Source of the DNA: Oscillospiraceae bacterium
GTDB taxonomy: Bacteria; Bacillota; Clostridia; Oscillospirales; Oscillospiraceae
Length of the DNA stretch: 64,000 bases
Assembly (NCBI GenBank): GCA_017458065.1
Contig: JAFTGD010000042.1
Span: 186,001 to 250,000, forward strand
Direction of reading: 5' to 3'
Below the pieces are notes generated by a model. The model was given only the letters and a program-made list of their open reading frames with translations, did not search any database and had not been told where the DNA came from. This document shows, one piece after another, positions 5,281 through 9,313 of this stretch. The position numbers were made by a program, and so were the translations under genes. Numbering within the stretch: position 1 is the stretch's first letter; every line of letters starts with the position of its first letter.

Positions 5281-5326
5281 AGCAGGGACCGCCCCGCCCA
5301 GTTCGGCGAAGCAGTCCCTGCTGTTT
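5281..5326. terminator. Hairpin terminator after the MATE gene
   Basis: Arms 5281-5289 (AGCAGGGAC) and 5314-5322 (GTCCCTGCT), followed by GTTT. It lies between convergent genes. The right side resembles the terminators of the peptide cassettes downstream (GCAGTCCYTGCTGTTT). Confidence 0.65.
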
Positions 5327-5971: not shown

Positions 5972-6035
5972 GGTTTTCCGCCTTTCTGATATGGACTGTG
6001 GTTTCACGGTTTTCGTTGAGCTTCTTATCAAGCAT

Positions 6036-6064
6036 AATTTAGCATTCAATTGTATATTCGTCAA
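6036..6064 (-). promoter_or_regulatory. Promoter of the LUD gene, paralogous to the relB promoter
   Basis: Reading on the - strand: TTGACG (6059-6064), 17-base spacer, TAAATT (6036-6041). The surrounding sequence aligns without gaps to 7107-7135 at a constant offset of 1071 bases, including a weaker form of the AAGCATA/TATGCTT inverted repeat. Confidence 0.6.
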
Positions 6065-6202
6065 TCATTTGCTTTGCAATTCCGTATGCGGACATTGGCG
6101 TATCGTCCTCACCTTCTTGGGTGGCAGCTCGAAGGCTTATCATATGTATTGTGTATTATTATCAAGCTGTTATAAGTATTTCCATATTTTAAAAACCTGT
6201 GG

Positions 6203-6226
6203 TATATTACAATCGTCCTGAGGGAC
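6203..6226 (+). promoter_or_regulatory. Extended -10 promoter and 5' hairpin of cassette 1
   Basis: TG-G-TATATT (extended -10, hexamer 6203-6208) with only a weak -35 (TTCCAT, 17 bases upstream). About 7 bases later GTCC-TGAG-GGAC (6215-6226) can form a small hairpin near the transcript start. Both are identical in the other cassettes (7274, 8974). Confidence 0.6.
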
Positions 6227-6259
6227 AAGATCAAAAACAAAAGAAAGAAGGCTTTGACA

Positions 6260-6322
6260 ATGAAAAAGATTTCTATGTTGCTGAAAGAGTACTACGAGAC
6301 CTACAAAGAAGGCCGAGGCTGA
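6260..6322 (+). CDS. 20-residue peptide, cassette 1 copy a
   Basis: Encodes MKKISMLLKEYYETYKEGRG, then TGA. An AAGAAGG ribosome site lies 8 bases before the ATG. I do not recognise the peptide. It is amphipathic-looking, with basic ends (KK..., KEGR-G) and a Tyr-rich middle, no membrane segment, no signal peptide, no Gly-Gly leader and no cysteine. Six near-identical genes occur in this window, and the codon differences among them are nearly all silent, which is the main evidence that it is translated. Too short for standard gene finders. Candidate roles are a signalling or regulatory peptide, a small toxin or a modified-peptide precursor; none is shown. Confidence 0.75.
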   Translation: MKKISMLLKEYYETYKEGRG

Positions 6323-6386
6323 GCGATCAGCGGAACCCAGTCAACAGAAACTTGAACAATCATAAAATAGAAAGAAGGCTATAATC

Positions 6387-6449
6387 ATGAAAAAGATTTC
6401 TATGCTGCTGAAAGAGTACTACGAGACCTACAAAGAAGGCCGGGGCTGA
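6387..6449 (+). CDS. 20-residue peptide, cassette 1 copy b
   Basis: Same amino-acid sequence as copy a (Met at position 6), with silent codon differences (for example Leu7 TTG/CTG and Gly-Arg-Gly GGCCGAGGC versus GGCCGGGGC). It has its own AAGAAGG ribosome site 64 bases after the stop of copy a, so both are likely read from one transcript. A terminator follows 38 bases after its stop. Confidence 0.75.
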   Translation: MKKISMLLKEYYETYKEGRG

Positions 6450-6487
6450 GAACCGTATGAGAAAAAAGGTTACGGCCGATCATAATT

Positions 6488-6534
6488 AGCAAGGACTGCT
6501 TCACCGATGCCGGCGACGCAGTCCTTGCTGTTTA
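6488..6534 (+). terminator. Terminator of cassette 1
   Basis: Perfect 12-bp arms 6488-6499 and 6518-6529 followed by GTTTAT. The stem is identical in all three cassettes. Confidence 0.75.
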
Positions 6535-6563
6535 TTGCGGGTATTCCGTTATAGAAAACCTTT

Positions 6564-6824
6564 TTAATTTCCATAGTGACCTCTGCATGAAGCAATCTCA
6601 ATGGTCCCTTCTTTCAGCCTATAGACCAAACGATCTGTTTCATTGATCCTTCGGCTCTTAAACCCTGATAAATCACCATGCAGGATTTCAGGCTTTCCAA
6701 TACCAAGATCCCCGGTTCTTTCGATATCTCGAATCAATTGATTAATGCGCTTTAAAGTCTTCTTATCCTGTGACATCCAATATAAATAGTCGTCCCATGC
6801 TTTGTCATACCAGATTTTATGCAT
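6564..6824 (-). CDS. yoeB: Txe/YoeB-family mRNA endonuclease toxin
   Basis: 86-residue YoeB-type toxin, near-canonical length. Hallmarks are I-W-Y-D-K-A-W-D-D-Y-L-Y-W near the start, G-K-P-E-x-L-x-x-x-L-S-G-F-x-S-R-R-I (about residues 43-60), D-R-L-V-Y, and the C-terminal C-R-G-H-Y with the catalytic His-Tyr. It would cleave mRNA in the ribosomal A site. Its start codon overlaps the antitoxin stop by one base (TGATG), the usual coupled order antitoxin then toxin. Confidence 0.93.
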   Translation of the reverse strand: MHKIWYDKAWDDYLYWMSQDKKTLKRINQLIRDIERTGDLGIGKPEILHGDLSGFKSRRINETDRLVYRLKEGTIEIASCRGHYGN

Positions 6825-7081
6825 CAGTCTACCTCAATGAGATCATGCTCCGTGCCTTTTCCTTCATTCAAAGCTGAAATTGCATTGCGCAGAAAGGCCA
6901 TATTCGCCTCACTGTAAAAGGGATCTGCATTAATCTCAAAAGGAATTCTGTGCTCACGGACCACTTTATTTGCAAAAATGGTGTACGCCGTTGTCGCAGA
7001 CATCCCCATTTCTTTGCAGACTGTGTCCATCTTGTTTTTCAGAGTTTCGTCCATTCGAAAATTGACCATAGTCTGTGCCAT
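6824..7081 (-). CDS. relB: RelB/DinJ-family antitoxin
   Basis: 85-residue antitoxin partner of the YoeB toxin. Residues about 5-50 form the ribbon-helix-helix (V-N-F-R-M-D-E-T-L-K-x-K-M-D... then G-M-S-A-T-T-A-Y-T-I-F) and the C-terminal part binds toxin. RelB/DinJ paired with YoeB, rather than YefM, is a known mixed pairing. Start at 7081 has an AAGGAG site. The promoter upstream is covered by an inverted repeat, consistent with autoregulation. Confidence 0.9.
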   Translation of the reverse strand: MAQTMVNFRMDETLKNKMDTVCKEMGMSATTAYTIFANKVVREHRIPFEINADPFYSEANMAFLRNAISALNEGKGTEHDLIEVD

Positions 7082-7097
7082 TTCTATCACACTCCTT

Positions 7098-7148
7098 GTA
7101 AAGCATAATTTAACATTAATATGCAATTTTGTCAATCATATGCTTTAC
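7098..7148 (-). promoter_or_regulatory. relB-yoeB promoter with embedded inverted-repeat operator
   Basis: On the - strand TTGACA (7130-7135), 17-base spacer, TAAATT (7107-7112). Perfect 10-bp inverted repeat GTAAAGCATA (7098-7107) / TATGCTTTAC (7139-7148) brackets the promoter, a plausible binding site for the RelB-YoeB complex. Confidence 0.65.
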
Positions 7149-7330
7149 AATCTTACACGTAGGCATCAGTGAGTTATTCTCGCCATTTTTGGTGGCAACT
7201 TAAAAGTTTATCATATGTTATATATATAATTAACCAGTTGTTATAAGTATTTCCATATTTTAAAAACCTGTGGTATATTACAATCGTCCTGAGGGACAAG
7301 ATCAAAAACAAATGAAAGAAGGCTTTAACA

Positions 7331-7393
7331 ATGAAAAAGATTTCCATGCTGCTGAAAGAGTACTATGAGACCTACAAAGAAGGCCGCGGCTGA
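7331..7393 (+). CDS. 20-residue peptide, cassette 2 copy a
   Basis: Protein identical to cassette 1 peptides (Met at position 6) but with silent changes, for example Tyr-Tyr as TACTAT and Gly-Arg-Gly as GGCCGCGGC. AAGAAGG ribosome site, ATG 8 bases later. Function unknown. Confidence 0.75.
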   Translation: MKKISMLLKEYYETYKEGRG

Positions 7394-7457
7394 TCAATCA
7401 GCGGAACCCAATTAACCGAAACCAGAACAATCATAAAAAAGAAAGAAGGCTTTGATC

Positions 7458-7520
7458 ATGAAAAAGATTTCCACGCTGCTGAAAGAGTACTACGAGACCT
7501 ATAAAGAAGGCCGGGGCTGA
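7458..7520 (+). CDS. 20-residue peptide, cassette 2 copy b
   Basis: Same peptide with Thr at position 6 (MKKISTLLKEYYETYKEGRG), the only position that varies among the six copies. Own AAGAAGG site; 64 bases after copy a. Function unknown. Confidence 0.75.
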   Translation: MKKISTLLKEYYETYKEGRG

Positions 7521-7558
7521 GAACCGTATGAGAAAAAGGGTTACGGCCGATCATAATT

Positions 7559-7606
7559 AGCAAGGACTGCTTCACCGATGCCGGCGACGCAGTCCTTGCT
7601 GTTTTT
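7559..7606 (+). terminator. Terminator of cassette 2
   Basis: 12-bp arms 7559-7570 and 7589-7600 followed by GTTTTT; same stem as cassettes 1 and 3. Confidence 0.75.
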
Positions 7607-7838
7607 CTGTCTGTTATTTCACTTGTACAAACAAATAAATAGAAGAAGTTAAATCGCCGCGATGCTTTTCACGTTGACTAATACACCCAATGGGTGTATG
7701 AAACAGACAGGGGACGATGGACTCAACGGAGCGTATATGAGGTGTGTTCATGGTGGCCTTTCTTTTGTGGCAACATTGTTGCTACAAAATTGACTTTTTC
7801 TCTGAATGTGCTATACTGTTTACGAGGAGGCGAAAGAA
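7607..7838. promoter_or_regulatory. Intergenic region with two palindromes and the promoter of the second TA module
   Basis: Two palindromes stand out: ATACACCCA-A-TGGGTGTAT (7681-7699) and TGTGGCAACAT-TGTTGCTACA (7766-7786, one mismatch in the arms). The second abuts a promoter, TTGACT (7790-7795), 16-base spacer, TATACT (7812-7817), and is a likely operator for the RelB-like antitoxin at 7839. The first is an unassigned regulator site. No gene was found between them. Confidence 0.55.
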
Positions 7839-8141
7839 ATGGATCATGTTACGTCAGCGCCGAAGACCGACGTGTTTCGTATGCGTGTGAATCCCGAAAT
7901 CCGCAAGAAGCTGGAAGCCGTCTATGAGAAGAACGGTCTGAGTCTCACGGATGCGGTCAATGTTTTTTTCCAGCAGTCTCTCAACGCAGGCGGCTTCCCA
8001 TTTGCCGTCACCGAGGAAAACGCCGAGGTCGTCAAGGCAAAGGCGCTCTCCCGCTTGATGAGGGAATTGCAGAAGGGCGACGAGTGCGCGGAGAGTTATT
8101 CGGAAGAAGACGCTATGCGACTTTTGGGAGTTGAGCCTTGA
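7839..8141 (+). CDS. RelB/DinJ-family antitoxin (second module)
   Basis: 100-residue protein with a ribbon-helix-helix N-terminus (D-V-F-R-M-R-V-N-P-E-I-R-K-K-L... G-L-S-L-T-D-A-V-N-V-F) and an acidic C-terminal toxin-binding tail. Start at 7839 has a GAGGAGG site 9 bases upstream. Its stop overlaps the toxin start (TTGA). Not closely similar to the RelB at 6824-7081, so the two modules are separate acquisitions rather than duplicates. Confidence 0.85.
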   Translation: MDHVTSAPKTDVFRMRVNPEIRKKLEAVYEKNGLSLTDAVNVFFQQSLNAGGFPFAVTEENAEVVKAKALSRLMRELQKGDECAESYSEEDAMRLLGVEP

Positions 8142-8443
8142 AAGTACGGTACAAGAGAACCGCGATTGAGGATATACAGGCAACGGAGGAATACATCCGC
8201 AGCGTCCTGCACAACGGCTCTGCCGCAAGGAAGCTGACCGGACGGATCGTGCAGGCGGTGTCTCTGCTGGCGGATAATCCCTACATGGGGACGCCGCTCA
8301 GCAGCCGCTTTGATGTGGAGACCGATCTCCGCTATCTGCTTGTCTCCGATCAGTTGATCTTCTATCGCGTGGTGGAAGAAAGTCATGTGGAAGTGACCCG
8401 CGTTCTGAACGGGCGGCAAGATTACATCAGCATATTATTTTGA
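8138..8443 (+). CDS. RelE/ParE-superfamily toxin
   Basis: 101-residue toxin with the ParE/RelE plan: M-K-V-R-Y-K-R-T-A-I-E-D-I strand, a helical pair, N-P-Y-M-G-T-P-L, then L-R-Y-L-L-V and Y-R-V...V-E-V-T-R-V-L-N-G-R-Q-D-Y at the end. TTG start overlapping the antitoxin stop by 4 bases. The VLNGRQDY ending favours ParE-like over RelE-like members, so gyrase is a possible target, but this is not certain. Confidence 0.85.
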   Translation: MKVRYKRTAIEDIQATEEYIRSVLHNGSAARKLTGRIVQAVSLLADNPYMGTPLSSRFDVETDLRYLLVSDQLIFYRVVEESHVEVTRVLNGRQDYISILF

Positions 8444-8487
8444 CGTCTGACCCGCGGCAGGACTCTGCAATACAAGGGGGTTATATT

Positions 8488-8667
8488 ATGGCAAACGTTA
8501 TTGAGAATCCAAAAATAATCAGCCGGATCTTTACTGAGAAAGAGCTGGCAGAACTGGAAAATGCCAGAAAACTGCCCATCACATATGATGAAGACTGCCC
8601 AGAGACAACCCCAGAAATGGCAATGCGATTCCGCCGTGTCAACCCGACACGTAAAGGCAAGTCATAA
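8488..8667 (+). CDS. Small acidic protein of unknown function (59 aa)
   Basis: I do not recognise it with certainty. It is short and charged (F-T-E-K-E-L-A-E-L-E...; P-I-T-Y-D-E-D-C-P-E-T-T-P-E-M-A), with a basic tail R-R-V-N-P-T-R-K-G-K. An AAGGGGG site precedes the ATG. It follows the ParE-like toxin by 44 bases in the same direction and is closed by a terminator, so it may belong to that module, for example as an accessory or orphan antitoxin-like protein. Confidence 0.55.
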   Translation: MANVIENPKIISRIFTEKELAELENARKLPITYDEDCPETTPEMAMRFRRVNPTRKGKS

Positions 8668-8683
8668 TCTATAAAAGCCCGTC

Positions 8684-8715
8684 AGCGCGCCGAGGGAACA
8701 TTCCTTCGGCGCGCT
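8684..8715 (+). terminator. Hairpin terminator of the second TA module
   Basis: Arms AGCGCGCCGA (8684-8693) and TCGGCGCGCT (8706-8715), perfect, 12-base loop, followed by only a short mixed tract. Confidence 0.6.
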
Positions 8716-8907
8716 TAGCATATTCCGTTAATTTTCACACCTTCTTGATTGATGTTAAACCATTCATAGAAACAAAAATCAATATATTTCGTGGAAACAT
8801 ATCGGATCAAACCTTGGTGACGATCCGACAACCATCATTTTGTAAATGTGCTACGCAGGACATAATGTCCTACGACATACAATGTAAATAGCTGTCCCAT
8901 GCCCTGG
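8716..8907. other. Intergenic stretch with inverted repeats, no gene seen
   Basis: Contains TCGGATC (8802-8808) / GATCCGA (8822-8828) and the near palindrome AGGACAT-A-ATGTCCT (8857-8871). It replaces the divergent promoter found left of cassettes 1 and 2. Confidence 0.4.
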
Positions 8908-9030
8908 TTATCATATCTTTTATATACTATTAGACCGCTGTAACAAGTATTTCCATATTCTATGAGCCTGTGGTATATTACAATCGTCCTGAGGGACAAG
9001 ATCAAAAACAAAAGAAAGAAGGCTTTGACA

Positions 9031-9093
9031 ATGAAAAAGATTTCCATCCTGCTGAAAGAGTATTATGAGACCTATAAAGAAGGCCGGGGCTGA
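9031..9093 (+). CDS. 20-residue peptide, cassette 3 copy a
   Basis: Same peptide with Ile at position 6 (MKKISILLKEYYETYKEGRG). Silent differences from the other copies include Tyr10, Tyr11 and Tyr15 as TAT. AAGAAGG ribosome site. Function unknown. Confidence 0.75.
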   Translation: MKKISILLKEYYETYKEGRG

Positions 9094-9157
9094 GCGATCA
9101 GCAGAACCCAGACAACAGAAACCTGAACCATCATAAAAAAGAAAGAAGGCTTTGATC

Positions 9158-9220
9158 ATGAAAAAGATTTCCACCCTGCTGAAAGAGTACTATGAGACCT
9201 ACAAAGAAGGCCGGGGCTGA
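9158..9220 (+). CDS. 20-residue peptide, cassette 3 copy b
   Basis: Same peptide with Thr at position 6, identical in protein to cassette 2 copy b. Own AAGAAGG site, 64 bases after copy a. Function unknown. Confidence 0.75.
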   Translation: MKKISTLLKEYYETYKEGRG

Positions 9221-9258
9221 GAACCATATGAGAAAAAGGGTTACGGCCGATCATAATT

Positions 9259-9306
9259 AGCAAGGACTGCTTCACCGACGTTGGCGACGCAGTCCTTGCT
9301 GTTTTA
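9259..9306. terminator. Terminator shared by cassette 3 and the helicase operon
   Basis: 12-bp arms 9259-9270 and 9289-9300, then GTTTTATT on the + strand. It lies between convergent units and may stop both. The loop differs from the other cassettes by three bases while the stem is unchanged. Confidence 0.7.
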
Positions 9307-9313
9307 TTGTGTA

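Follow-up and report, generated by a model that had tools for sequence, protein, structure and literature searches.

The stretch of DNA analysed here (the window) comprises 64,000 nucleotides (nt) from an Oscillospiraceae bacterium (GenBank assembly GCA_017458065.1, contig JAFTGD010000042.1, positions 186,001 to 250,000 of the forward strand) and contains six short open reading frames (ORFs) for the 20-residue peptide MKKISxLLKEYYETYKEGRG, arranged in three direct-repeat cassettes of about 400 bp. Each cassette consists of a promoter, two peptide genes with ribosome sites before them, and a terminator (Table 1). The six ORFs match the degenerate core with 0 mismatches, against 0 matches expected from 100 shuffles, and residue 6 (x) is M, M, M, T, I, and T in order of position. 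In all three cassettes the two starts are 127 nt apart, the terminator hairpin follows the first start by 228 nt, and GTATTT lies 84 nt upstream of the first start; over 300 nt, cassettes 2 and 3 are 88% and 83% identical to cassette 1. A preliminary description, made from the sequence of the window, had reported the paired near-identical genes and their identical spacings, both of which are confirmed here, and its account of units with their own promoter and terminator that belong to no recognised family is supported by the sequence and by the family scans described below. DNA and profile searches of the organism's own genome (3.6 Mb) returned no seventh copy.

Among the 60 nt compared in the six window copies, eight are variable, six of them silent and two in codon 6, giving a ratio of nonsynonymous to synonymous polymorphism (pN/pS) of 0.076; the claim that differences inside the genes are silent except at residue 6 therefore holds. 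Six groups of family sequences gave pN/pS values of 0.173 (group a, 8 sequences), 0.091 (b1, 6), 0.268 (b2, 6), 0.253 (c, 3), 0.146 (d, 9), and 0.047 (e, 17), groups that were chosen by peptide pattern, which biases pN downward (the six window copies were not so chosen), and that leave aside genus g46, for which nothing was collected by the pattern, as well as those members (e.g., L020) that have an additional in-frame start upstream. As judged from these codon comparisons, selection is acting at the level of the peptide, and the earlier proposal of a selected peptide stands, with values of 0.05 to 0.27 across the six groups. Frameshifts or stops in homologues, which the preliminary description had named as evidence that would count against a peptide, were seen rarely in the loci read: one frameshifted first copy (L046/L061) was met there, where broken copies were not searched for systematically, versus 78 distinct ORF sequences, which were collected by pattern and may include a few chance ORFs.

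The window peptide (type a) belongs to a diverse family of peptides of 15 to 27 amino acids (aa) with a core of about LxEYYxSF, encoded in one to four tandem copies; members occur in 26 of the 102 genus genomes and in six further genera belonging to the taxonomic family (g39, g41, g46, g60, g82, and g95). Type b combines MKKLEKLVEELYESFSHREG with MKKISELFKEYYKSFSHREGR, type c is MKKVSVLLEELYVTFIHGRG, type d carries two or three copies of MKKIERFFEDLYESYLHR with MKKVSRLLREYYATFSR, and type e consists of pairs of MLKEYYESFSHREGK. Within the genus, a single-peptide search matched 29 of 101 genomes at E ≤ 10 and a profile search matched 47 of 102 at E ≤ 1, including weak matches inside long frames; 64 matches in 26 genomes were kept (E ≤ 0.002), and a 65th (G314, 9.9e-4) was dropped as an ordinary gene. 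At the DNA level the cassettes were found in their own genome only, among 300 genomes of the taxonomic family, phages, and plasmids; seven DNA matches in other genera were judged to be chance, as were ten short phage matches (E 0.3) that were the sole return of distant DNA and protein searches of phages and plasmids. The exact window-peptide pattern occurred in 0 genome contigs and 0 viral contigs. A broader core pattern was likewise absent from viral contigs; in genome contigs it matched 23 stretches, 22 with a family ORF by script and one (L088, labelled Blautia) without. The named contigs among these are metagenome-assembled genomes (MAGs) whose labels are Oscillospiraceae, Ruminococcaceae, Clostridiales, and similar names, with two Lachnospiraceae and one Blautia, and several of their titles name ruminant guts. 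Pfam and NCBIfam gave no match above cut-off for the 15 members scanned out of 18 (those of at least 20 aa) or for seven longer relatives, the weak matches including SP_0009_fam (E 0.014, 15 of 33 bits) and Mre11_C_bact (E 0.085, one of the 15 scanned members). PHROGs gave three unnamed matches at E 0.024 or weaker (16 of 28 members scanned), and a literature search on the peptide motifs and on LysR, nitrogen, asnB, and small-protein topics returned no report of this peptide family in the library searched.

Peptide genes of the window and of relatives share a promoter with a dyad close to TTATCATAT-N7-ATATGATAA near -65, GTATTT near -39, and an extended -10; in an alignment of 23 leaders (A3), GTATTT lies 17 nt before the GTG of the extended -10, with the dyad upstream of it. 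Such a -65/-35 layout is that of LysR-type promoters. When a position weight matrix (PWM) of the operator and GTATTT was trained on 23 peptide loci that included neither the window nor any type a locus, the three cassettes took ranks 1 to 3 on both strands of the 64 kb (36.4, 31.4, and 26.4 bits; next, 4.7). The dyad part was the top-scoring site at 25 of 27 further target loci; because these 27 had been preselected by the promoter model described next, it is the gene identities that provide independent evidence. That model, R2, includes the operator and replaced R1, whose many weak matches were plain strong promoters. It was built from 33 rows (26 peptide loci, two window cassettes, two peptide-less g39 loci, and three asnB promoters), none of them from gltB, glnN, guaA, purA, purC, or asnA. 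R2 matched 66 of 400 genomes of the taxonomic family at E ≤ 0.001 and, at E ≤ 1e-4, 65 sites in 37 of the 102 genus genomes; 62 of the 64 kept peptide matches lie directly downstream of a match. Across the order, under Infernal's stricter filters, 10 of 380 genomes matched at E ≤ 1e-5, seven in this taxonomic family; the sites in the other three lead to other genes, so the peptides look restricted to the family at this sensitivity.

Slightly more than half of the genus sites (34 of 65) are followed within 420 nt by a kept peptide, and one more (L219), divergent from LysR, lies before a 41-aa ORF that contains two EYY motifs (SEYYRTYS, SEYYKTFQH). The remaining 30 all precede nitrogen or amide genes: asnB (17), gltB (3), and glnN, guaA, purA, purC, and asnA (2 each). 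Gene names come from similarity to reference proteins; the AsnB, GuaA, AsnA, PurA, PurC, and PyrG references pass NCBIfam cut-offs, that of GltB is partial and does not reach its own, and Pfam places GlnN in type III; asnB and gltB of G000 and the genes of G109 were read directly at the locus, and at L210 asnB is split over two frames. Weaker sites (1e-4 to 1e-3) precede purC in the window's own genome and pyrG and amtB in G109. A further site in the window's genome (C20:165209) resembled a strong promoter matched by chance. Peptides and nitrogen genes thus have in common a dyad near -65 with a proximal site, and the operator model outlines a putative LysR nitrogen regulon in the genus composed of asnB, asnA, glnN, gltB, guaA, purA, purC, and, more weakly, pyrG.

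Outside the genus, 31 loci with the stronger matches were read, 29 returned by the R2 family search and two more from G405; 17 carry peptides (g39, g41, g46, g60, g82, and g95) and 14 do not. A LysR gene of one type adjoins 15 of the 17 peptide loci, 14 divergently and one in the same direction (L242), the exceptions being L145 and L156. Fourteen of these LysR matches cover most of the protein, with 45 to 100% identity to the L091 query, and one divergent gene is a 45-aa match at a contig end. The 14 loci without peptides comprise five (g102) that lead to asnB, three (g39) beside LysR, and six with other genes, five of which have a more distant LysR relative (30 to 35% identity). In the window's own genome the ortholog of this regulator is encoded in trans, beside a T-box asnB at C20 (74% over 316 aa, next best much weaker), and not beside the window cassettes; that it acts on the cassettes is suggested by orthology and the common operator. 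Among the NCBIfam matches listed for the LysR of L070 are AlsR, CidR, and GltC, all far below cut-off. The adjacency raises the possibility, which we regard as rather unlikely, that the peptide is a feedback partner of LysR, binding the regulator and limiting or sharpening the activation of peptide and nitrogen genes alike. LysR is the recurring neighbour outside the genus, and in most of those loci the peptide promoter is the divergent promoter of LysR; however, peptides in the window's genus occupy many sites away from LysR, and LysR is present without peptides at three loci of g39 and five of g102, so LysR needs no peptides.

Neighbourhoods in several relatives also point to nitrogen assimilation, with an ammonium transporter, AsnB, GlnN, GuaA, and PyrG among the neighbours. 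Type b peptides, read as far as each contig extends, have glnN or amtB on one side and asnB on the other, LysR and pyrG lying farther out (L022, L024, L033, L041, L052, L070, and L072). Type c peptides are found beside glnN (L023), glnN and guaA (L026), or guaA (L032), and some type e peptides are beside asparaginase (L128) or purA and guaA (L090). Because type b peptides are located between the promoter and a T-box asnB from which no clear T-run terminator separates them, the ORFs could be leader peptides or an RNA element in which translation controls termination before the next gene, the peptide being only a sensor. We consider this very unlikely. Asn and Gln make up 8 of 930 residues in 48 peptides (related sequences, which are not independent) versus 5.8% in nine reference proteins, and the run of Asn or Gln codons expected of an amino acid attenuator leader is absent. 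In the window and in other types a hairpin and T-run follow the peptides, and in some cases the gene after them is encoded on the opposite strand. A small stem-loop placed where the RNA is predicted to start is no stabler in the window copies than in shuffles (14 to 17% of shuffles were as stable), its structure is kept in only part of the family, and it was rejected as a universal structure of the leaders since it fell at ≤5% of shuffles in just 15 of 33. An Rfam scan of the window found no RNA at gathering score, the glutamine riboswitch included; at E ≤ 5 there were weak alpha_tmRNA, sR53, and IsrM matches only. The near-absence of Asn and Gln would allow translation under shortage of those amino acids, which is suggestive only.

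An amphipathic helix is predicted for most of the peptides: in 12 of 15 representatives the helical hydrophobic moment was reached by at most 2% of shuffles. Short, leaderless, amphipathic peptides in tandem copies, whose genes here alternate with two toxin-antitoxin modules and have a restriction-type gene nearby, might be type I-like toxins or membrane-active, leaderless bacteriocin-like peptides of a defence or addiction island. This explanation is highly improbable: the window peptide has a mean hydrophobicity of 0.27 and many charges, at odds with the hydrophobic transmembrane peptide of type I toxins, PADLOC gave no match (16 of 28 members scanned), and in relatives the operator is common with nitrogen genes. 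Little more can be said for a secreted or modified peptide signal, that is, a precursor of a ribosomally synthesized and post-translationally modified peptide (RiPP). Three of the 15 scanned members resemble grasp_w_spasm_A (best E 0.02), and in one relative (G381) a probable radical-SAM gene (L131 1808-2560, reverse-strand reading; named by eye from TGRCKHCSEG) lies about 300 nt upstream of a type a peptide gene on the same strand, but the matches are weak, the peptides have no hydrophobic leader, and a scan of seven neighbouring window genes showed no RiPP modifying enzyme (at other loci the neighbours were judged mostly by eye). The suggestions in the preliminary description of a type I-like toxin, a signal, a modified-peptide precursor, or a defence or immunity peptide thus went unsupported. 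Nor were restriction and toxin-antitoxin neighbours observed to recur, many relatives being located beside nitrogen genes or LysR with the common operator. Rather than acting as poisons, the peptides probably contribute to nitrogen control.

Peptide-level selection, the common operator, the genes that bear it, and the adjacency of LysR in relatives are all evident from the sequences. On this basis the peptides very probably belong to the nitrogen regulon, and we lean toward reading the cassettes as micropeptide genes of a LysR-controlled nitrogen-assimilation regulon, with the peptide tuning a nitrogen-assimilation protein. The LysR-type regulator encoded next to the T-box asnB would bind the dyad near -65 and drive short mRNAs with two copies of the 20-aa amphipathic-helical peptide, and would likewise drive biosynthetic genes for asparagine, glutamine, glutamate, purines, and CTP. 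Control in common with amtB, glnN, gltB, and asnB suggests a response to nitrogen shortage. The peptide, whose translation, protein target, and direction of effect we infer from the same comparisons, is most likely intracellular, and the LxEYYxSF face of its helix would dock on a nitrogen-assimilation protein and tune its activity. Candidate targets are the type III glutamine synthetase GlnN, an AmtB-GlnK fusion, or, just as well, LysR itself as feedback partner; that glutamine synthetase is the target we consider possible and less likely than not. Equally tentative is the more specific proposal that these nearly Asn/Gln-free peptides of 15 to 27 aa, controlling type III glutamine synthetase or an AmtB-GlnK switch, are the most dedicated output of the LysR nitrogen regulator.

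Several observations weigh against assigning the peptides a part in nitrogen control. No kept peptide match was found by profile search in 76 of 102 genus genomes, and g39 loci L146, L147, and L243 keep LysR and the operator-promoter and have no peptide gene; given these absences, the peptides are not essential. Several other type a and e loci have no obvious nitrogen link among the neighbours listed, and in g39, g46, g82, and g95 the gene adjacent to the peptides is LysR, not glutamine synthetase. Amphipathicity was not significant for types c and e and the L219 ORF. A search of the window's genome for LysR-like genes gave 20 or more matches at E ≤ 1e-5.

Small regulators of nitrogen metabolism are known, and what is new here is an unrecognised peptide family with a testable regulon. 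The cyanobacterial proteins IF7 and IF17 (gifA/gifB; 65 and 149 aa) are small proteins under NtcA that bind glutamine synthetase (PMC7760959). They resemble the peptides described here in being small proteins under a nitrogen regulator (a putative one here), and differ in being controlled by NtcA, a small RNA, and a glutamine riboswitch, whereas the present peptides have 15 to 27 aa, a LysR-type operator, and a conjectural target; members of at least 20 aa gave no Pfam or NCBIfam match above cut-off that would place them in the IF7/IF17 families. Methanosarcina mazei sP26, a 23-residue ORF-encoded peptide, is reported to bind glutamine synthetase (PMC9249791, PMC11957540), binding that was not resolved in a later cryo-electron microscopy study; it is similar in length but archaeal. 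The C-terminal tails of GlnR and TnrA in Gram-positive bacteria are short helical segments that bind feedback-inhibited glutamine synthetase (PMC9249791), but these are tails of MerR-like regulators (GlnR motif XG(E/D)XSRF), whereas the peptides here are free and have another motif. IF7/IF17, sP26, and the GlnR tail may serve as the nearest working analogues, and we claim membership in none of those families.

GltC and NAC are comparable as LysR regulators of nitrogen genes, but the L070 LysR falls far below their cut-offs (118.7 of 350 bits for GltC and 92.1 of 309 bits for NAC). Peptides so short escape annotation, and genome comparison ties this unannotated family to one regulon with directly testable predictions. 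Should these peptides prove to tune glutamine synthetase or the uptake of ammonium, they would bring a further, peptide-based layer to the nitrogen control of relatives of ruminant-gut MAGs, open a way into the regulation of type III glutamine synthetase, and constitute a peptide arm of nitrogen control in Firmicutes, in uncultured Oscillospiraceae-like bacteria.

Table 1. Features of the three peptide cassettes, in window coordinates
Feature	Position	Strand	Basis
LysR-type operator dyad, cassette 1, about -65 (putative)	6134..6161	+	PWM (scores in text)
Promoter, cassette 1: GTATTT, then extended -10 TGG-TATATT (6203-6208)	6176..6208	+	Leader alignments A3, A4
GUCC-UGAG-GGAC small stem-loop at predicted RNA 5' end	6215..6226	+	Folding versus shuffles
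Peptide gene 1A MKKISMLLKEYYETYKEGRG	6260..6322	+	ORF/pattern match, peptide search of genus
Peptide gene 1B MKKISMLLKEYYETYKEGRG	6387..6449	+	ORF/pattern match, peptide search of genus
Intrinsic terminator hairpin, cassette 1	6488..6535	+	Sequence, cassette alignment
LysR-type operator dyad, cassette 2 (putative)	7205..7232	+	PWM
Promoter, cassette 2	7247..7279	+	Sequence
Peptide gene 2A MKKISMLLKEYYETYKEGRG	7331..7393	+	ORF/pattern match, peptide search of genus
Peptide gene 2B MKKISTLLKEYYETYKEGRG	7458..7520	+	ORF/pattern match, peptide search of genus
Intrinsic terminator, cassette 2	7559..7605	+	Sequence, cassette alignment
LysR-type operator dyad, cassette 3 (putative)	8905..8932	+	PWM
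Promoter, cassette 3	8947..8979	+	Leader alignments
Peptide gene 3A MKKISILLKEYYETYKEGRG	9031..9093	+	ORF/pattern match, peptide search of genus
Peptide gene 3B MKKISTLLKEYYETYKEGRG	9158..9220	+	ORF/pattern match, peptide search of genus
Intrinsic terminator, cassette 3	9259..9305	+	Sequence, cassette alignment

The cassettes are flanked by a LUD-domain gene on the left and a T5orf172/ResIII protein on the right. Between the three direct repeats are toxin-antitoxin pairs, YoeB/RelB-like at 6564-7135 (-) and RelB/ParE-like at 7842-8443 (+), and the repeats may have served recombination or duplication. A 60-nt stretch common to 6021-6080 and 7092-7151 (78%), upstream of cassettes 1 and 2, links the cassette repeat with the beginnings of the LUD and relB genes. 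Hairpins like the cassette terminator are also found behind unrelated genes of the same genome (L004 1501-1545, C19:156624; window 5303-5322), and the cassette hairpin looks like a repeated terminator element.

Among the relatives, the ammonium transporter gene at L070 5045-6772 (+) encodes an AmtB that passes its cut-off and a PII-like C-terminal part that scores 89 of 202 bits (below cut-off). A probable glmS (by eye; L233 1535-3436, G405 C61), a glutamine user, lies just upstream of a peptide pair away from LysR. In two g39 genomes (L143, L144) a small extra ORF (MEQNxLxHVVGA..GNCQTS) precedes the peptide copies, 141 to 145 nt past the operator start. The peptide-less g39 loci are labelled L100/L146, L110/L147, and L243, and L100 and L243 retain the GTGTGATCCATCC stretch found behind the peptides in relatives.

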